DNA from: Meiothermus sp.
GTDB taxonomy: Bacteria > Deinococcota > Deinococci > Deinococcales > Thermaceae
DNA length: 64,000 nt
Direction: 5' to 3'
Assembly (NCBI RefSeq): GCF_026004075.1
Contig: NZ_BPIK01000001.1
Coordinates: forward strand, 784,041-848,040
In this document: positions 13,765 to 60,870 of the stretch, one piece after another
Layout: every line of letters begins with the position of its first letter
Numbering within the stretch: position 1 is the first letter of the stretch
The notes under the pieces: generated by a model
Databases searched by the model: none
The model's input: only the letters and a program-made list of their open reading frames with translations
Told to the model about the DNA's origin: nothing
Position numbers and translations under genes: made by a program

Positions 13765-14544
13765 TTAGGGCTCGAGGCTCGCTTCCTTGGGAGCAGGCTT
13801 GGATTTGGTGCCTACATAGCGTAGGGCCGTCCAGATGAGCACCACCGAAAAGGTGAGCCTGAGCCAGAACTCGGGGAGTTGATTGGCCACCAGGCCTCCC
13901 GCAAAAGCCCCGACCAAGATGCCTACTACCAGCCCCGGTACGTGGGCCTGGGCCAGGTTGCCATGGCGGTAGTGGGTGTACGACCCCACCAAGGCCGATG
14001 GCACCATAGCCAGCAGCGAGGTGCCCTGGGCGGTGTGCTGCTCGAGGCCCACCAGCAAAACCATAATCGGCACTGTAATGGTACCGCCACCCACGCCCAG
14101 CAAGCCCGAGGCAAAACCTGCGGCAGCCCCGGTAAAGACCAGGGGAATGATCCGAAGCCAGCCTTGCAGGGGCTCTTCCACGTGCGGAATGTAGGGCTTG
14201 AGGATCAGGCTCAGGGCCACCACCACCAGGTACCAGCCAAACACCCGCTTGAGCTTCCACTCCGGCAGCCGGTTGGCGAAGCGGGCTCCCCAGTTGGCCG
14301 TGAGCATGGCGCTGGGGAAGATGAGCAGGGCCGCCAGCCAGTCCACGGTACCCTGGGTGGCGTAGGTCAGGGCCCCTACCAAGCCGGTGAAGACCACCAT
14401 CACCAGGCTGGTAGCCACGGCCTGGTGCTGGGATAGCTTGAGAAAGGCCGACATCAGCGGAACCGCTATAATGCCGCCCCCAAGCCCCACCAAGCCACCA
14501 AATGCTCCTGCCAACAGGCCGATCCACAGACTCGAGAGATTCAC
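13765..14544 (-). CDS. TauE/SafE-family (TSUP) anion permease
   Basis: With GTG 14544 as start the protein has 259 residues and eight or so membrane segments. The two family repeats are visible as GLLAGAFGGLVGLGGGIIAVP near the N-terminus and AAAGFASGLLGVGGGTITVP in the middle. The family exports or imports sulfite, sulfoacetate and related anions; the substrate here is unknown. A TATAAC box lies 6 nt before GTG 14544, which supports a leaderless start; the open frame continues upstream to 14610 but would overlap the neighbouring gene. Confidence 0.88.
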   Translation of the reverse strand: MNLSSLWIGLLAGAFGGLVGLGGGIIAVPLMSAFLKLSQHQAVATSLVMVVFTGLVGALTYATQGTVDWLAALLIFPSAMLTANWGARFANRLPEWKLKRVFGWYLVVVALSLILKPYIPHVEEPLQGWLRIIPLVFTGAAAGFASGLLGVGGGTITVPIMVLLVGLEQHTAQGTSLLAMVPSALVGSYTHYRHGNLAQAHVPGLVVGILVGAFAGGLVANQLPEFWLRLTFSVVLIWTALRYVGTKSKPAPKEASLEP

Positions 14545-30157: not shown

Positions 30158-31255
30158 ATGCCGCAACGAATTTTGCTGGTTTACACAAAGGCAGGGGGTG
30201 GGCACTTTGCCCTGGCGAAAAATCTACACAAACTGCTGACCGAGCTCGAGCCCGAGTCCGAGGTTCGCCTGTTCAATTTTTTCGATGTGGGGCCGCGCTG
30301 GATTGCCCAGGCCATTCAGGATGGCTACAACTTTGCCGTCAACAAGCAGCGCTGGCTCTTTACGGTCTTTCAGGCGTTTTATCAAACCCGCCCGGCCATT
30401 CAGTCCTTTGCGCGGGTGCTGGGGATGCGCCTGGCGCCGGCCATCAACGAGTACCTCGAGGAATTTCGTCCCGATAAAATCATCTACTGCTACCCGGTGA
30501 ACCACGGCTTTCGCCGGCTGCCCTACGTGCGCAAGCACAAGCCCAAAACCCTCACCGTAGTAAGCGATATTTTTAGCCCGCACCTGTACTGGTTCATAGA
30601 CACCAAAGACCAGTACGTGGTGGCCAGCCCCGAAGCCTACAGCATCGCGCGGCGTTACCGGGTGCCCCCGGAAAACCTGCACTTCTTCCAGACCCTCATA
30701 GACCCCAAGTACAACAAGCCCCTCGAGCCCGCCCAGGTAGCCCGGCTGCGCGAGGAATGGGGCCTGGTTCATCCCTACACCGTGCTGGTGACGGGGGGTG
30801 GGGCCGGCCTAAAAATTAGCTTCAAGCTGGTGCGCGAGCTGATCAAAATCGAGGGCATCAACGTGGTGGTGGTGTGTGGGTATAACCAGAAGCTTTACCG
30901 GCAGCTCGAGGCTTTCAAGCAAAAGCACCGGCTATCTAACCTGATTCTGTTCGGCTTCACTCAGCAGATGTACGAACTGATTAATGTCTCCGACGTGGTG
31001 GTTTCCAAAGCCGGCCCTGCGACCATCGCCGAGGTGCTCTCCCAGCACAAAGACCTGATCGTCTGCGATTATGTATGGCCGCAAGAGTACGGCAACGTCG
31101 AGCTAATCCGGCACGAGAAGCTGGGGTATTACATCCGGCAGCCCCGCAAAATTGCCGACAAAATCCGGGAACTCAAAGACCGGCCCCCCGAGCGCAAAAC
31201 CCTCAACCTGCAAAACGACATCGTGCGGCTGGCCGAGTATATCCTCAGGCTTTAG
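30158..31255 (+). CDS. MGDG-synthase-like family 28 glycosyltransferase
   Basis: The 365-residue protein has two Rossmann-like halves of the GT-B fold. The N-terminal half begins RILLVYTKAGGGHFALAKNL, with the GGGH motif of MGDG synthase and MurG-type enzymes. The C-terminal half has VLVTGGGAGLK and the donor-binding VVVSKAGPATIAEVLSQHKD. Members transfer sugars from UDP- or other nucleotide donors to diacylglycerol; glycolipid synthesis is a plausible role in this thermophile group. It ends 11 bases into a convergent aldo/keto reductase. Confidence 0.88.
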   Translation: MPQRILLVYTKAGGGHFALAKNLHKLLTELEPESEVRLFNFFDVGPRWIAQAIQDGYNFAVNKQRWLFTVFQAFYQTRPAIQSFARVLGMRLAPAINEYLEEFRPDKIIYCYPVNHGFRRLPYVRKHKPKTLTVVSDIFSPHLYWFIDTKDQYVVASPEAYSIARRYRVPPENLHFFQTLIDPKYNKPLEPAQVARLREEWGLVHPYTVLVTGGGAGLKISFKLVRELIKIEGINVVVVCGYNQKLYRQLEAFKQKHRLSNLILFGFTQQMYELINVSDVVVSKAGPATIAEVLSQHKDLIVCDYVWPQEYGNVELIRHEKLGYYIRQPRKIADKIRELKDRPPERKTLNLQNDIVRLAEYILRL

Positions 31256-32977: not shown

Positions 32978-33072
32978 TTGTTTCGTCGCCCGGGCGTTTT
33001 TCTGGGATGCACGCTGGCATAGGGTGCGCCACCAACTGTGGCTTTATACTGGGGCCAAAGCAAGGAGGAAGT

Positions 33073-35412
33073 GTGCGCATACTGCGTTTTCTGGGGCGTT
33101 TGTTGTTGTTGCTGATTGGACTGGCGCTGGTTCTGGCTGTGGGGGGTTGGTTCTGGTTGCGGGCGGCCACCATTCCGCAGCACACGGGGCGGCTGGCCCT
33201 TAAGGGTCTCTCGGCGCCGGTGGAGATGAGCCGCACTGCCGAGGGCATACTGCACATCAAAGCCCAGACCGACGAGGACGCGTTCTTCGCCCTGGGTGTA
33301 GCCCACGCCCAGGATCGCCTGTGGCAGATGGAGTTCCAGCGCCGGGTGGGGGCCGGGCGGCTTTCCGAGGTGATTGGGAAGGCCACCCTGGAGCAAGACC
33401 GCTTCCTGCGCACCTGGGGCTTCTACCGCGCTGCTGAACAAGCCTATGAGGGCCTATCGCCCTATGCCAGGTCGGCAGTGGACGCCTACGTGGCGGGCAT
33501 CAACGCCTACCTGGCCACCAACCCGCCCCTGCCGCTCGAGTTCCGCCTGCTGGGTTTCAGGCCCGAGCCCTGGAAGCCCGCGGATGTGCTGGTCTGGGCC
33601 AAGATGATGTCCTACGACCTTTCGGGCAACTGGCGCAGCGAGCTGCAGCGCCTGCAGTGGGCGGCCAAAGGCATGCCCGTGGCGCGCATGATGCAGCTCA
33701 AGCCCCCTTACCCCGCCGATGCGCCCACCGTGCTGCAGGCCGAGGATTTACAACTCCCTCCGCCAGCAAAGCCGGATGGGGAGTCGGCCCGTTCCCTCCT
33801 CAGCCTGGCATCCCGGCTGCCCCAGGCTCTGCACCTGCCGGGGGAGCTAATGGCCCGGGCCTCCAACAACTGGGTGATTGGCCCCGCGCGCACCGTGAGT
33901 GGAAAACCCCTGCTGGCCAACGACCCCCACCTGGGGCTGGGTGCGCCCTCGGTGTGGTATCTGGTGCATATCGAAGCCCCCACCTACAGGGCCATCGGTA
34001 GCAGCTTTCCGGGGCTTCCGGCGGTGGTGATTGGCCGCAACGAGCGCATCGGCTGGGGGGTGACGACAGTTGGGGCCGATGTGCAGGATCTGTACATCCT
34101 GGAGGAAGTTCCAGGTGGCTACCGCTACAAGGGACAGACGGAGCCCTGGCGCACCCGCACCGAGGTGATCAAGGTCAAAGGCGAACCCGACGTGACCCTC
34201 GAGGTGCGGGAAAGCCGCTACGGGCCGGTGATCAACGATGTGGTCAGGAACCCCGGCGCCAAGCCGCTTTCGTTGCGCTGGACCAGCCTCGACCCCACCG
34301 ACCGCACCATGGAGGCCTTCCTGGGGATCGCCCGCGCGCAGAACTGGGAAGAGTTCAAGGCTGCCTTAGCCCTCTACAACGCGCCCAGCCAGAACTTTGT
34401 TTATGCCGATGTGGACGGCAATATCGGCTATATGGCTCCAGCCCGCTTCCCCATCCGCCGGCCCGGCCACTCGGGCCTGATGCCGGTGCCGGGCGACGGC
34501 AACTGGGACTGGCAGGGCTACCTGCCCCAGGATCAGTGGCCGCAAGTCTATAACCCCAAAGAGGGCTTTATCGTCACCGCCAACAACAAGGTGACCGCCC
34601 CCAATTACCCGCACACCATCTCGCTGGAGTGGGAGGAACCCTACCGGGCCCAGCGCATCCGCGAGCTGATACTGGCCAAGGAAAAACTCTCCCTGGAAGA
34701 CATGGTCGCCATGCAGCAGGACATTACCAGCCTCTTGTACCGGGAGTTTAAGCCGGTTTTGGAGCTGCTCAACCCACTCTCGGAGAACGCGCGCCAGTGG
34801 AAGGCCCGTTTGCTGGCCTGGGATGGGGTGATGCGGGCCGAGCAGGTCGAGCCCACGGTCTTCCAGGCCTGGTACACCGAGCTGACCCGCTTGCCCAGCA
34901 AAGAGGTGGAGCAGGAGTTCTGGGAGCAGCCCCGCTACCTGCTGGCCGCCATGCGCCAGGGCGACCCGGCCTGCCAGACGCCCGATACCCAGACCTGCCT
35001 GGAATTTGCTGCCCTCGCCCTCGATAAGGCCCTCGACCGCTTCAGCAACAACCCCCCGCGCTGGGGCGAGGTGCACCGGGCCACCTTCCCCCACGCCATT
35101 CTGACCAACGTCTCGCCGCTCAACCGCCTCTCCGACCGGGCCGTGCCCCACGGGGGCGACCGCTACACCCTGAACCGGGCCTCCTACGACCCCAGCACCT
35201 TCCGCATGACGGTGGGGAGCAGCTACCGGCACATTCTGGATTTTGCCGATCTGGAGAACTCGAGGTTCATTCACCCCATGGGCCAGTCCGGTGCGCTTTT
35301 GTCGGGCGGATACGACAACCTACTGGCTAAATGGGCGGGGGGGCAGTACCTGCCCATGCGGATGGGGGAGACCAGCTTCAGGACGCGCCAGACCCTCGAG
35401 CCCCTACGCTAG
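33073..35412 (+). CDS. Penicillin acylase-family N-terminal nucleophile hydrolase
   Basis: I start at GTG 33073, just after AAGGAGGAA. The 779-residue precursor has an N-terminal membrane/signal segment (LGRLLLLLIGLALVLAVGG) and the features of the penicillin amidase S45 family: the alpha-chain motif AFFALGVAHAQDRLWQMEFQ, a self-cleavage site before Ser264 in ASNNWVIG, then LLANDPHLG, FPGLPAVVIGRNERIGWGVT and NFVYADVDGNIGYMAP. The enzyme should cleave itself into alpha and beta chains and hydrolyse an amide in the periplasm, such as an acyl-homoserine lactone or a penicillin-like compound. A paralogue is at 44335-46698. Confidence 0.93.
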   Translation: MRILRFLGRLLLLLIGLALVLAVGGWFWLRAATIPQHTGRLALKGLSAPVEMSRTAEGILHIKAQTDEDAFFALGVAHAQDRLWQMEFQRRVGAGRLSEVIGKATLEQDRFLRTWGFYRAAEQAYEGLSPYARSAVDAYVAGINAYLATNPPLPLEFRLLGFRPEPWKPADVLVWAKMMSYDLSGNWRSELQRLQWAAKGMPVARMMQLKPPYPADAPTVLQAEDLQLPPPAKPDGESARSLLSLASRLPQALHLPGELMARASNNWVIGPARTVSGKPLLANDPHLGLGAPSVWYLVHIEAPTYRAIGSSFPGLPAVVIGRNERIGWGVTTVGADVQDLYILEEVPGGYRYKGQTEPWRTRTEVIKVKGEPDVTLEVRESRYGPVINDVVRNPGAKPLSLRWTSLDPTDRTMEAFLGIARAQNWEEFKAALALYNAPSQNFVYADVDGNIGYMAPARFPIRRPGHSGLMPVPGDGNWDWQGYLPQDQWPQVYNPKEGFIVTANNKVTAPNYPHTISLEWEEPYRAQRIRELILAKEKLSLEDMVAMQQDITSLLYREFKPVLELLNPLSENARQWKARLLAWDGVMRAEQVEPTVFQAWYTELTRLPSKEVEQEFWEQPRYLLAAMRQGDPACQTPDTQTCLEFAALALDKALDRFSNNPPRWGEVHRATFPHAILTNVSPLNRLSDRAVPHGGDRYTLNRASYDPSTFRMTVGSSYRHILDFADLENSRFIHPMGQSGALLSGGYDNLLAKWAGGQYLPMRMGETSFRTRQTLEPLR

Positions 35413-44334: not shown

Positions 44335-46698
44335 CTACGGCCTCAGCTCGAGCGTCCAGGTAGGCCCCCAGTCGGCCGGGCGGGTGCTGAGGGGGATGTA
44401 CTGCTTATCGCGCCAGAGCCAGAGCAGGTTGTCGAAATGCGGGCTAAACACATCAGCAGACTGGCCCATGGGGTAGACGATGCGGCTGTTGTCGGGGTCG
44501 GAAAGGTCGAAGAGGGTGCGCAGGCTGGCCCCCGAGGTGTGCTGGAAGGTGTCCTGGTTGTAGTTTGCTACGTTCACGGTGTGCATCGAGCCGGGGGTGG
44601 GAATGGTGCGGTTGAACAGGCCGCCGATAAGCGGCGTGGAGGCCAGGGGGGAGGGAAGGCTGGCCTGGTGCAGCCGGCCCCACTGCCAGCCGGAGGGGTC
44701 GGGGCCCAGGCGGCGCTCGAGCTCGGCGCCGGCTTTCTCCAGGGCCTGGGCCATAAACTGGGCGCAGTTCCGGATGCCCGCGCTGGCATTCTGGCACCAG
44801 CGGCCATCCTCGCGCAGGGTTTTGACAAAGGTATAGGGCACCGGCGGGTAGCGCAGGCCCAGCTCATCCTCCAGCATCCGGGAGATCTCACGGTAGTAGA
44901 AGGCGAAGGCCGTGGCCCCCACCGAGTCCAGTTCGGCCCGCAAGTCCCAGTTGCGCACCGCGTTTTGCAGACGTCGGGCTGACTCGCTTTGGGGCTGTAG
45001 GGCCAGCAAGCCCGGTAGCAGCTCACGGGCAATGATGGAGTAGGTATCCCCCTGCCAGCGGGCCATGTCCTCGAGGCTGGCCCTGGGCGTAGCCAGAATC
45101 AGCTCGCGGATACGCTGGGCCCGGAACACCTCGGTGGTGTAGCTGGAGATGTCCGGCCCCCCGTGCGGCAGCACGCGGTTGTTGGCGCTCGAGACAAACC
45201 CCTCCCTGGGATTGACCACCTGGGGTAGCCGCTCAAAAGGCAGGTAGCCCTTCCACTGCTGCCCGGTGCTGGCGCTGGCCGGGAAGCGCCCGTCCCAGTC
45301 GCGTATGGGAACCCAGCCCGGTGCGAAATAGCCGATGTTGCCCTCCACATCGGCATACACAAAGTTCTGCATGGGGGCCACGTAGCGCCTCAGGGCCTGG
45401 CGGAACTCCTCGGCGTTTTGGGCGCGGTTCATGCCCAGGTAGGCGTCCAGGGTGGTGTCCTGCGGGTCGAGGCCCGTCCAGCGCACCGAAACGGCCTGCT
45501 TTTCCGTAGCGATGGCGGCGCCCGCCGTGAGGCCGGGCCGCAGGAAGGCCGGCCCCAGGTCGGAGATCACCGGGCCGTACTCGCTTTCCCGCACGGTGAT
45601 GGTCACCGGGTCGGCCCCCCGCACCCGGATGGTCTCCTGCCGAACCCGTAGCGGAACCAGGCCCAGCGGGGTGCGGTACGACTCTCCTTCCAAATCCAGC
45701 ACAAACAGATCCATCACGTCGGGCCGCACGTTGGTGGCCCCCCAGGCCACCCGGTCGTTGCGTCCCAGAAACACCCCCGGCACGCCCGGAATGGTGGCTC
45801 CAATAGCGTTGTAGGTGGGGCCGCGCAGGTCGGCGATGTACCACAGCGCAGGGTTTTGCAGCCGCAGGTGGGGGTCGTTGGCCAGCATTGGCTTGCCGGT
45901 GGTGGTGCGCGCACCGCTCAGCACCCAGTTGTTGGAGCCCTGGTCGGGGTTTTGGGGGGCAATGCTGAGCTGCCTGGATAGCGCGGCCACCTGCTCGAGC
46001 CGCTCCAGGAGGCCAGGGGAGAGTGCGGCTGGCTGGTATACCCGGCGGCTCTGGGCGGGCTCGTCCAGGCTGCGGAGGTCTTCGGGCTGAAGAATGGTGG
46101 GCCAGCCCTGCGGATAGGGCCCGCGCAGGTCGTTAAAGCCCTCGAGGCCCACCTTATTCAGGATGAAGGTGTTGTCTATCTCGTCCTGCCAGACCTGCCC
46201 CAGATCGTAGGACTGCAGCTTGCCCCAGGCCAGGGTGTCGGCGGGTGTCCAGGGCTCGGGGGTAAAACCCAGCAGGGCAAAGGGCAGGGGCAGGCTGCCC
46301 TCGCGGATGAACTGATTGACCCCGGCGGCGTAGGCCTCGAGGGCCCGGCGGGTGAACTCGGTGTGGTTGGGAAGGGAAGCCAAAGCGGCCCGGTAGAAGC
46401 CCCAGGTGCGGAAGAAGCGATCCTGCTCGATGGCCCCGCTGCCCAGAATTTCGGCTAGCCGCCCCTGCGCGGCCCGGCGGCCCAGCTCCATCTGAAAAAG
46501 CCGGTCGCGCGCGTGCACGTAGCCCTGTGCAAAAAACACGTCCATATCGCTGGCCTGAGCCCGGATGTGCGGAACCCCCCAGCGGTCGAAGGTAATGCGC
46601 ACCGGCCCCACAAGCCCCTGCACCTGCTGTACCTGATTAACCGGCACGCAGGAAGCCAGCACCAGCAAACCCATAAGCCACAAAAGCCGCCTGTGCAT
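44335..46698 (-). CDS. Penicillin acylase-family hydrolase, lipoprotein-like
   Basis: The 787-residue precursor starts with a lipoprotein signal (LLWLMGLLVLASC, Cys at about 17). The S45 family layout follows: VFFAQGYVHARDRLFQMELG, a spacer, the self-cleavage site before Ser255 in GSNNWVLSG, MLANDPHL, PGVFLGRNDRVAWGATN and NFVYADVEGNIGYFAP. It is clearly paralogous to the 33073-35412 protein along its whole length. An acylase acting on an amide outside the inner membrane is expected; acyl-homoserine lactones, beta-lactams or other amides are all possible. Confidence 0.92.
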   Translation of the reverse strand: MHRRLLWLMGLLVLASCVPVNQVQQVQGLVGPVRITFDRWGVPHIRAQASDMDVFFAQGYVHARDRLFQMELGRRAAQGRLAEILGSGAIEQDRFFRTWGFYRAALASLPNHTEFTRRALEAYAAGVNQFIREGSLPLPFALLGFTPEPWTPADTLAWGKLQSYDLGQVWQDEIDNTFILNKVGLEGFNDLRGPYPQGWPTILQPEDLRSLDEPAQSRRVYQPAALSPGLLERLEQVAALSRQLSIAPQNPDQGSNNWVLSGARTTTGKPMLANDPHLRLQNPALWYIADLRGPTYNAIGATIPGVPGVFLGRNDRVAWGATNVRPDVMDLFVLDLEGESYRTPLGLVPLRVRQETIRVRGADPVTITVRESEYGPVISDLGPAFLRPGLTAGAAIATEKQAVSVRWTGLDPQDTTLDAYLGMNRAQNAEEFRQALRRYVAPMQNFVYADVEGNIGYFAPGWVPIRDWDGRFPASASTGQQWKGYLPFERLPQVVNPREGFVSSANNRVLPHGGPDISSYTTEVFRAQRIRELILATPRASLEDMARWQGDTYSIIARELLPGLLALQPQSESARRLQNAVRNWDLRAELDSVGATAFAFYYREISRMLEDELGLRYPPVPYTFVKTLREDGRWCQNASAGIRNCAQFMAQALEKAGAELERRLGPDPSGWQWGRLHQASLPSPLASTPLIGGLFNRTIPTPGSMHTVNVANYNQDTFQHTSGASLRTLFDLSDPDNSRIVYPMGQSADVFSPHFDNLLWLWRDKQYIPLSTRPADWGPTWTLELRP

Positions 46699-53420: not shown

Positions 53421-53945
53421 ATGGACACCCAGACCCTTAAAGCCCAGATTCTGGCCGTTTTGTTTGCTGCTGGCAGGCCGCTTGCCCTGGGCGACCTCAG
53501 TCCACTGGGCACGGAAGACGCGCTACTGCGGGCCATCGTGGCCCTCGAGCACGACCTGAGCGACGGCAAATCGGGGGTGCAACTCGAGCGGGTGGCGGGC
53601 GGCTGGCGGCTGGTGGTGCATCCCCTGCACCTGACGGCGGTCGAGCAGGTGTTGCGCCCCACCCCCCCACGCATTTCCAAGGCGGCCCTGGAGGTACTGG
53701 CCCTAATTGCCTATCAACAGCCCCTTACCAGAGCAGAGCTGGAAGCTTTGCGTGGCAAGAGCGTGGAAGGGGTGCTCGAGGGACTGATCGAGCGCCAACT
53801 GGTGCGGGTAGTAGGAGAGAAGGAAGCTGTGGGACGGCCCAAGCTATATGGAACCACCGACCGCTTCCTGGAAATGTTCGGCCTGGAAAGCCTAGCCGAC
53901 CTGCCCCCAGTAGGAGAAGGCCCGATTTTGCTGCTGCGCAGCTAA
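53421..53945 (+). CDS. scpB: Segregation and condensation protein B
   Basis: The 174-residue protein has the ScpB winged-helix pair: LKAQILAVLFAAGRPLALGDL, the central ISKAALEVLALIAYQQPLTRAEL and VEGVLEGLIERQLVRVVG, then GRPKLYGTTDRFLEMFGL. It forms the SMC-ScpAB condensin with ScpA and SMC, neither of which is in the window. ATG 53421 has no clear Shine-Dalgarno. Confidence 0.95.
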   Translation: MDTQTLKAQILAVLFAAGRPLALGDLSPLGTEDALLRAIVALEHDLSDGKSGVQLERVAGGWRLVVHPLHLTAVEQVLRPTPPRISKAALEVLALIAYQQPLTRAELEALRGKSVEGVLEGLIERQLVRVVGEKEAVGRPKLYGTTDRFLEMFGLESLADLPPVGEGPILLLRS

Positions 53946-54009
53946 GGTGCGTGCATGGCGCGAAACCAGGCTTCGTTATAATGCCGCAGGTAGGGGAGGG
54001 TTATTTGTT

Positions 54010-54744
54010 GTGACGCTTCGGGTTGATGTGATCCCTAAACCCCCGTATCCACAGCCGGTATTGGTCGTGGATGTTTTTTATGGCAGCGTTGTGGGTGCTT
54101 TGCTATCTTCTGGAGCCCGGGAAGTATGGGTTGCCAAGAGCGTGCGGGCAGCGCAAATTCTGGCTGAAGGGGGTGGCTTGCTTCTGGGCGAACAGGAGGG
54201 CTTTCCACCGGAGGGTTTTCATGCTGGAGTCTCGTTGCAAATCCTCCCAGGGCTTGGCGTGAAAGGAAAAACCTGTGTGCTGCTGGCCCCGCCGCTGGCC
54301 GAGTCGCTGGAGCAGGTTCCGCTCGAAAGCACGCTGGCCTACTTCCGCAATGCCAGAGCCGTTGTGGCCTACGCGGCCGAGCAAAACATCGGCACGGTAG
54401 TTGCGGCGACGCAGGCCAGGCTCGAGCCCAGCCTGGCCAATACCGTGGCGGCGGGTTTTATTGCCAAACGTTTACATCAATCGTTGGGTGGGGTGGGCGA
54501 CCTGCAGGGCGGTGGCCGAATGGCCATGGCGCTGCTCAAGTCTTTCCCAGACCCGCAAGAGTCGCTGGTGCAGTCCGATATGGGTGAGCTGCTTTACCGC
54601 GCAGGACGTAGCGAGGAACTGGCCTTGTCCAGCCTGGTTAGCGTGGAAGAGCTAACGCCTAAACTAAAGCAGGTTAAGCGGCTCGAGGCCAGGCAGTACG
54701 GCCTGACCAAAGATCGGTTCGGATTTTGTTTCCAGGCGAGGTAG
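54010..54744 (+). CDS. ComB-like protein, probably catalytically degenerate
   Basis: GTG 54010 lies 9 bases after GGGGAGGG and is preceded by TATAAT at 53977-53982. The 244-residue protein aligns along its length with the ComB protein at 60130-60870 (LRVDVIPKPPYPQPVLVVDV against [22 protein letters not shown], and LLGEQEGFPPEGFHAG against [16 protein letters not shown]). It lacks DVIRATTT, which here reads DVFYGSVV, and the STTNGTR phosphate-binding motif, which reads LLAPPLAES. It is thus probably no longer a phosphatase. The WecG/TagA gene follows 3 bases later. Confidence 0.78.
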   Translation: MTLRVDVIPKPPYPQPVLVVDVFYGSVVGALLSSGAREVWVAKSVRAAQILAEGGGLLLGEQEGFPPEGFHAGVSLQILPGLGVKGKTCVLLAPPLAESLEQVPLESTLAYFRNARAVVAYAAEQNIGTVVAATQARLEPSLANTVAAGFIAKRLHQSLGGVGDLQGGGRMAMALLKSFPDPQESLVQSDMGELLYRAGRSEELALSSLVSVEELTPKLKQVKRLEARQYGLTKDRFGFCFQAR

Positions 54745-54747
54745 GCG

Positions 54748-55500
54748 ATGCAGCGGGTCGAGATTTTGGGGACACCGGTTGATCTCGTCGACCTCGAGCA
54801 AACCCTGAACTGGATCGAAAGCCAGGTAGCCCACCCTGGTTCCCTGTGCGCCCAGATCGTCACCACCAACCCCGAGGCTGTAGTGCGGGCCCAGACCGAG
54901 CCGGCCCTCAGGCAAGCCCTTCGGGAGTGCGAACTGATCACAGCGGATGGGGTCGGTATCGTTTGGGCGGTGCAGCTTCTAACTGGACACCGCCTTCGTG
55001 ACCGGGTGCCTGGCTCGGAAATCCTGCCCGCTGCTTTTGGCCGCTTTGGTTCCGGCTTAAGGGTTTATTTTCTTGGTGCAGCGCCCGGCGTAGCTCTGCG
55101 CGCCGCCCAGAACGCCCAGGCCCGCTGGGGCATTCAGGTGTGTGGGGTGCAGGATGGCTACTTCACCAACGAGGAAGACGTGGTAGAGGCCATAAGACAG
55201 GCCCAGCCCGATCTCCTGGTGGTGGGCATGGGTGAGCGGCAGGACACTTTTATTCACCGCAACAAGGCCCGATTGGGTGCCAAGGTCGCTATTGGCGTGG
55301 GCGGTATGATTGATGTTTTGGCCGGAGAGGTCAAGCGGGTGCCGGTCTGGGCGCAAAAGCTCAAGATTGAGTGGCTGGTACGCATTGCGCTTGACCGTCG
55401 GCGCTGGGGCCGATTCCCAAGGTTGCTCCACTTTGTGCGCCTGGTGTTGCGAGAAAAGCTACGCCATCTGTGGCCTAAGGGCACACATCGCGGCATCTGA
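54748..55500 (+). CDS. WecG/TagA/CpsF-family glycosyltransferase
   Basis: The 250-residue protein is a family 26 glycosyltransferase. Typical features are TTNPEAVVRAQTEPALR, the motif ITADGVGIVWA with the catalytic aspartate, DRVPGSEILPA, LRVYFLGAAPGVA and LLVVGMGERQDTFIHRNK. Members transfer N-acetylmannosamine or similar sugars to undecaprenyl-linked GlcNAc. It follows the ComB-like gene by 3 bases. It may add to envelope glycans separate from the first cluster. Confidence 0.93.
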   Translation: MQRVEILGTPVDLVDLEQTLNWIESQVAHPGSLCAQIVTTNPEAVVRAQTEPALRQALRECELITADGVGIVWAVQLLTGHRLRDRVPGSEILPAAFGRFGSGLRVYFLGAAPGVALRAAQNAQARWGIQVCGVQDGYFTNEEDVVEAIRQAQPDLLVVGMGERQDTFIHRNKARLGAKVAIGVGGMIDVLAGEVKRVPVWAQKLKIEWLVRIALDRRRWGRFPRLLHFVRLVLREKLRHLWPKGTHRGI

Positions 55501-60129: not shown

Positions 60130-60870
60130 ATGCGCTTACGGGCCGATCTAGTTCCCCAAGACAACCTGAGTTATCCCGATGTGGTGTTGGTGGTTGATGT
60201 GATTCGAGCCACTACCACCGCCACTGCTTTTCTGGAAGCAGGGGCCGATGCTCTGTACCTTACGCCCGATCTGGAAAGCGCCCGGGCTTTTCGGGATACC
60301 GATGTGGTGCTGGCCGGGGAGGAAGGGGGGCTAAAACCCGCGGGTTTCGACTATGGCAACTCGCCACGGGAAGCCCTGGAAGCGCCGGTGGGCGGCAAAA
60401 TTGTGGTGATGAGCACCACCAACGGCACCCGCACCGCGCACCTGGCGGCCCGCAGCGCCAAGCACGTACTGCTGGCCTCGCTCTTCAACGCCCACGCCGC
60501 GGCCCGTCTGGCCCACCAACTGGCTACCGAGGAGGTGGCTATCCTGTGTGCTGGCAAGGAAGGCCGGATTGGCCTGGACGACGTCTACACCGCAGGGGTG
60601 CTGGCCGAGTTTTTGCAGATTATGGGCTCATATGAGCTGGAAGACGGCGCGCTGACGGCTCTCACCACGCGCCGGGCCTACCCCGACCCGCTCGAGCCCC
60701 TTCACCTGTCCGGCGCGGCCCAGGCCCTGCGCCAGGTGGGCCTCGAGGCCGATGTGCCTTTTTGCGCCCAGATCGCGGCCTCGCCGGCGGTGGGGATGCT
60801 CGAGGGCCGGGTGGGGGAGGCCCTCATTTTTAAGCGAGCCCAGCGGCCCAGCAACAGCGGCCAGGGCTAG
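60130..60870 (+). CDS. comB: 2-phosphosulfolactate phosphatase (ComB)
   Basis: The 246-residue protein carries the ComB motifs: [57 protein letters not shown] and [19 protein letters not shown]. Members dephosphorylate 2-phosphosulfolactate. The enzyme was defined in coenzyme M synthesis in methanogens, but in bacteria it supports sulfolactate formation or another route. It has a Shine-Dalgarno (AGAGGAAAAAG). The degenerate paralogue is at 54010-54744. Its TAG stop shares the palindrome CTAG with the convergent asnS stop. Confidence 0.9.

Follow-up and report, generated by a model that had tools for sequence, protein, structure and literature searches.

A WecG/TagA glycosyltransferase gene of Deinococcota is paired with a ComB paralogue that has lost most of the active-site signature in the Thermus/Meiothermus family

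In the Thermus/Meiothermus family of Deinococcota (hereafter the family), a WecG-linked paralogue of the 2-phosphosulfolactate phosphatase ComB combines the features of a pseudoenzyme, namely loss of the ComB motifs, a retained predicted fold and purifying selection. We call this protein ComB2 and consider, with a probability of about 0.5, that in the family it is a pseudophosphatase that serves the glycosyltransferase WecG, whose gene follows its own, as a modulator or an accessory subunit. Family ComB2 is a putative pseudoenzyme branch of a known protein family with a conserved glycosyltransferase neighbour, and the pairing is new as far as we searched, no published account of it having been found in the open-licence literature covered. 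The genes that anchor the Thermus-like outer envelope to the cell wall via a pyruvylated polymer have been only partly worked out, and a conserved partner of WecG would hint at control of the WecG step. Ordinary ComB, WecG-linked ComB with most of the conserved residues, WecG-linked ComB without them and WecG alone also form a natural series for the passage from an enzyme to a non-catalytic helper, and "2-phosphosulfolactate phosphatase" would be a misleading annotation for ComB2 in Thermus and Meiothermus.

The window, by which we mean the whole stretch of 64,000 nucleotides that was analysed, comes from a Meiothermus sp. genome of 3.25 Mb in 2 contigs with three PF04029 genes. The ComB2 gene (54010-54744, forward strand) starts with GTG, stops with TAG and encodes 244 amino acids, and residues 6-220 match the whole PF04029 domain (92.9 bits against a cut-off of 26.4). 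PF04029 was the sole family detected in all 49 ComB2 sequences of the profile set, and no DNA-binding or signalling domain was found in any of them. An ordinary ComB with an intact signature, ComB1, is encoded in the same window (60130-60870, forward strand; PF04029, 225.9 bits) and served as the comparison protein; it is near kin of 2z0j (TTHA1438) and 29% identical to ComB2. The third PF04029 gene (L002, G000:C2:629180-629800; 200 bits) encodes a protein with intact motifs and 55% identity to ComB1. A search of the source genome for ComA (PF02679) found none, so neither ordinary ComB nor ComB2 has the textbook substrate from the known route there.

Upstream of ComB2 lies scpB (53421-53945, forward strand; PF04079, 161 bits), which holds this position in part of the phylum, with the same order in many relatives. 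The ComB2 start is preceded on the forward strand by a conserved -10-like box, TATAATGCCGC (53977-53987, with TATAAT at 53977-53982), and by ggggagg (53993-53999), which reads as a Shine-Dalgarno-like run ahead of the GTG. Because a TATAATGCC box occurs within 75 nt upstream of ComB2 in 17/17 same-genus loci, the comB2-wecG pair probably has its own promoter. A longer open reading frame starting at 53947 is disfavoured relative to the start at 54010 on account of the conserved TATAAT and the ggggagg run. A second exact copy of TATAATGCCGC occurs on the forward strand of the window at 14467-14477.

The conservation of the ComB signature was assessed in 68 ordinary ComB proteins (32 ComB1/ComB3 from the phylum and 36 ComB from other phyla), in which 19 columns are near-invariant (at least 65/68), among them D23, R26, E64, N77, S78, P79, G99, N120, D151 and D208. 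Read by eye, the window ComB2 keeps 12 of these 19 and replaces R26, N77, P79, G99, G142, D151 and D208. In the alignment, DVFYGSVV (54070-54093, forward strand as for the following segments) stands in place of the DVIRATTT of ordinary ComB, with a gap after the glycine (DVFYG-SVV) and Y24 at the site of the universal arginine; V74-S75-L76 (54229-54237) occupies the place of the universal N-S-P; APPLA (54286-54300) replaces TTNGT, the ComB1 segment STTNGTR being aligned with LLAPPLAES; and A143-N144 (54436-54441) replaces a DD pair whose second aspartate is universal. The changes in the DVIRATTT and STTNGTR segments that the preliminary description had pointed out are thus present.

Motif counts, which cover 38 of the 48 family ComB2 found and 37 of the 47 other ComB2 found, revealed that these losses are shared by the whole family. 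Arginine occupies the R26 site in 67/68 ordinary ComB vs 0/38 family ComB2, D151 is present in 68/68 ordinary ComB and 37/37 non-family ComB2 but in 0/38 family members, and N77, P79 and G99 are likewise found in 0/38. Since these five universal positions carry identical replacements in 38/38 family members, we rejected chance or a sequencing error in one genome as the cause. D23 persists in 18/38 and D208 in 15/38 family ComB2, and E64, F73 and N120 in 38/38. From their conservation, the altered residues are presumed to be catalytic. In the non-family ComB2, chiefly N77 and G99 are gone, TTNGT having become SENLP, SENAP or similar, and R26, D151, D208 and S78-P79 are retained (two sequences appear without D23 owing to the choice of start); mean retention of the 19 columns is 0.88 outside the family and 0.61 within it. 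Because ComB2 outside the family keeps most universal residues, the loss is derived within the family; the existence of such orthologues, which the preliminary description had named as grounds for doubt, qualifies how far the loss extends and leaves the loss itself standing.

Despite these replacements, the single-chain AlphaFold2 model of the window ComB2 (pLDDT 95.6, pTM 0.93) has a predicted ComB fold. It matches 2z0j_H with a Z score of 32.6 (rmsd 1.6, 225 aligned) and 1vr0_B with a Z score of 28.5, at a Foldseek E value of 4.7e-19, so that the comparison with ComB crystal structures advised at the outset came out in favour of a ComB relative. Median dN/dS by the Nei-Gojobori method, with some pairs saturated, was 0.16 for ComB2 of the own genus and 0.26 for ComB2 of Thermus, close to the corresponding WecG values of 0.13 and 0.20; ComB1 gave 0.05 (5 sequences) and 0.24, respectively. 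In addition, 55 of the 244 ComB2 columns are identical in at least 37/38 family members. We conclude that family ComB2 is under purifying selection, with a predicted ComB-like fold. One same-genus ComB2 (L024, G041:C354:8527-9330) carries a Ser-rich insertion of ~24 residues ahead of its SLAN segment. Two PF04029 copies with one in-frame TAG each (G045:C24:24222-24908 and G033:C13:46419-47123) are perhaps decaying ComB3 genes or end-of-gene artefacts.

In a tree of 104 proteins built by a quick method, ComB2 forms one clade (SH-aLRT 99) beside ordinary Deinococcota ComB, and the family ComB2 forms one clade nested within it (SH-aLRT 100). Family membership was checked via identical contig stretches, which identified the G043 locus as M. 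taiwanensis and the G026 locus as C. roseus, and over 103 residues G060 ComB1 matches T. thermophilus 2z0j exactly. The residue loss took place once, before Thermus, Meiothermus and Calidithermus split, and what had been described in a single sequence as a ComB paralogue without catalytic motifs is therefore borne out as a family-wide loss of single origin. Because WecG-linked ComB2 spans the phylum and forms one clade, the simplest view is that comB2 and wecG have been passed on as a pair since early in the history of the phylum, and the difference in retained columns is most simply explained by two steps, in which the pocket motif was altered early in ComB2 and the arginine and aspartate residues were then lost in the family. 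Somewhat short of an even chance, in our estimate, is the fuller history in which a phosphatase gave rise to a dedicated partner of a GT26 (WecG/TagA) enzyme, at first as an active enzyme of altered specificity and then, in the family, as a purely regulatory pseudophosphatase. If true, a metabolic enzyme would have become a regulator of envelope-polymer synthesis in two steps, with both states alive in sister families.

The wecG gene of the window (54748-55500, forward strand) is the genome's only PF03808 gene (173.7 bits) and encodes a WecG/TagA/CpsF glycosyltransferase of GT26. It lies downstream of ComB2, with 3 bp between the ComB2 stop and the wecG ATG at 54748, so the two genes, which had been described as fused into a two-gene unit, are adjacent but not fused. 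Using a profile built from 49 of 69 ComB2 sequences and setting its matches against PF03808 positions, we found ComB2 in at least 95 of 111 phylum genomes (the best 90 ranked rows plus G074, G075, G078, G080 and G102, hand-picked among rows mixed with ordinary ComB), and all 95 have a co-directional WecG match no more than 1.5 kb downstream of ComB2. A named collection of 79 loci contains 43 with WecG downstream, all from the phylum (Thermus, Meiothermus, Calidithermus, Truepera and related MAGs, one labelled only "bacterium" but placed by contig identity to G004), and no Deinococcus-named record. WecG was seen beside 0/36 of the ComB relatives from other phyla (Chloroflexota, Riflebacteria, Thermodesulfobacteriota, Planctomycetota and others), for some of which the contig is too short to show the whole flank. 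Within the scope of these searches, the comB2-wecG pairing is a feature of the phylum; the preliminary description had asked whether it is conserved in Deinococcota or found only in this genome, and the at least 95 genomes, together with pairing at 43/43 phylum loci of the named collection, settle that in favour of conservation. In most loci the two genes overlap by 4-22 bp or stand 2-4 bp apart, which suggests translational coupling of comB2 and wecG. In the Trueperaceae-labelled f5 genomes (L110-L123), the pair or a lone wecG sits between guaB-like and purF-like genes, as judged by eye from open reading frame starts, in surroundings that differ from the scpB context of the window.

Among the matches listed for the 111 phylum genomes, ComB2 without WecG was not seen, and WecG without a ComB2 candidate was seen in 13 genomes. 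Two of the latter were dropped, G021 because its WecG belongs to another subfamily (at most 110 bits to paired WecG, among sugar-nucleotide-like genes) and G087 because its WecG reaches the contig end, leaving the upstream region off the contig; in the remaining 11 the upstream region is visible. In G028, which is 100% complete and belongs to the same genus as the window, scpB and wecG lie side by side with ComB2 cleanly absent, and no TATAAT box was found before wecG. This locus (L105, 2647-2794), where both ComB2 and the box are gone from between scpB and wecG, amounts to a natural knock-out. A strict requirement of WecG for ComB2 is ruled out by the 11 WecG-only genomes: ComB2 is accessory, not essential.

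WecG itself has the PF03808 domain, the catalytic threonine and aspartate and the C-terminal arginine, and T39, D67, R212, R219, R222 and R225 are present in 78/78 sequences, paired and unpaired alike (the truncated L017 and L086 were excluded from the alignment). Judged by motif, the counterparts of T39, D67 and the C-terminal arginines in T. italicus TagA would be T37, D65 and the region of R221, residues to which the available text of PMC6493773 assigns roles. Since WecG with all conserved residues occurs without ComB2, WecG activity does not in general depend on the latter; three columns separate paired from orphan WecG, all of them weakly.

The source genome encodes one CsaB-type pyruvyltransferase, one clear, strong UDP-GlcNAc 2-epimerase and SLH domains at four loci, all outside the ComB2-WecG cluster. 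In Paenibacillus alvei, ManNAc is added to lipid-PP-GlcNAc by TagA, followed by pyruvylation by CsaB with PEP as the donor (PMC6030368, available text), and pyruvylated polymer is the ligand of SLH-type outer-membrane proteins in Deinococcus-Thermus (PMC10628300, available text). Given the P. alvei TagA/CsaB precedent, WecG likely makes a precursor of a pyruvylated secondary-cell-wall polymer: it would most likely add ManNAc to lipid-PP-GlcNAc, and CsaB would pyruvylate the product to yield the polymer to which SLH-domain envelope proteins are anchored. TagA is described as passing from an inactive dimer to an active monomer at the membrane (available portion of PMC6493773), so a step exists that a partner could control. 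As a pseudophosphatase partner of WecG, family ComB2 would have lost phosphate-ester hydrolysis by the ComB mechanism and would probably bind WecG, for example to set its dimer/monomer or membrane-bound state, perhaps sensing a small ligand in the remnant of its pocket, where E61, S75 and N114 are kept. A WecG-binding protein that shifts the dimer/monomer balance would be useful yet dispensable, like ComB2.

The rates of ComB2 and WecG covary beyond ScpB across 26 genomes (partial r 0.76; 0/5000 permutations), but inside the own genus the value is 0.35, below the 0.65 of WecG and ScpB, so the link from mirror-tree covariation is mixed. A direct interaction of the two proteins is what we infer, with gene linkage as indirect evidence, and adjacency alone need not mean common function. 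The possibility raised in the preliminary description, that ComB2 has a regulatory or structural part in making envelope glycans, fits these data as an inference, with the qualification that ComB2 is not strictly required, WecG also occurring alone.

Family ComB2 might instead catalyse a new reaction, as an enzyme whose specificity changed before the split (TTNGT to SENLP/SENAP) and whose site was rebuilt in Thermus/Meiothermus to act on a phospho-compound near the WecG step. E61, F70 and N114 are kept in 38/38 family members and S75 in 36/38, and H71, R113 and R236 are both family-specific and family-invariant; moreover, non-family ComB2 retain nearly all acidic and arginine residues with an altered pocket motif, which makes an ancestral ComB2 enzyme likely. 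For the family protein we nevertheless regard a new reaction as unlikely, because the equivalents of R26 and D151 are gone in 38/38 and those of D208 and D23 are unevenly kept, a substrate is not indicated and the genome is without ComA. The ComB fold recognises 2-phospho-carboxylates, and the pocket signature of family ComB2 is partly kept. Together with the use of PEP as the CsaB donor (PMC6030368, available text), this would fit a sensor of a small molecule, for instance PEP-like or a sugar phosphate, that regulates WecG or transcription without a stable enzyme complex; as the residues lost are the presumed phosphate- or metal-binding ones and ComB2 is without a DNA-binding or signalling domain, such a role appears quite improbable.

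The pairing might also reflect nothing beyond an inherited neighbourhood and translational coupling, with wecG riding on the ComB2 promoter and ribosomes and ComB2 having an unrelated job. Overlapping genes, one promoter-like box common to both and flanking genes that vary between families would be expected on these terms, but the order is kept in 95/95 ComB2 genomes, across families with differing surroundings, and among the matches listed WecG was found without ComB2 and ComB2 never without WecG, which leaves mere linkage with poor odds. That the ComB2 gene is decaying and about to be lost, as its clean disappearance from G028 could be taken to mean, we consider very improbable in view of 38 aligned family copies that are all open, dN/dS of 0.16-0.26, 55 near-invariant columns and a confident predicted fold.

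Compared with ComB proper (PF04029; 1vr0, 2yyv, 2z0j), ComB2 has the full-length profile match, the predicted fold (Z 28-33) and shared ancestry with ordinary Deinococcota ComB, but the window protein is without 7/19 near-universal residues, is WecG-linked and comes from a genome without ComA. The ComB2 of Trueperaceae and other non-Thermus families belong to the orthologous clade and have the identical gene order with WecG; unlike family ComB2, they possess R26, D151, D208 and S78-P79, with mainly TTNGT and N77 changed, and they may therefore be active enzymes, as judged from these residues. The partner gene has its counterparts in WecB/TagA/CpsF (GT26) proteins such as TagA of T. italicus and P. 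alvei, with which WecG shares the catalytic threonine and aspartate and the C-terminal arginine, whereas no ComB-like partner is mentioned in the available portions of PMC6493773 and PMC6030368. The trypanosome AdoMetDC prozyme (PMC5201418, available text) is likewise a dead paralogue retained beside a working enzyme, but prozyme and enzyme are paralogous and ComB2 and WecG come from unrelated families.

Elsewhere in the window, 30158-31255 encodes a relative of MGDG synthase (PF06925/PF04101), a glycosyltransferase that may be a glycolipid enzyme, and two large penicillin-amidase family proteins (PF01804, >750 bits each) are encoded ~9 kb apart on opposite strands, at 33007-35412 and 44335-46698.
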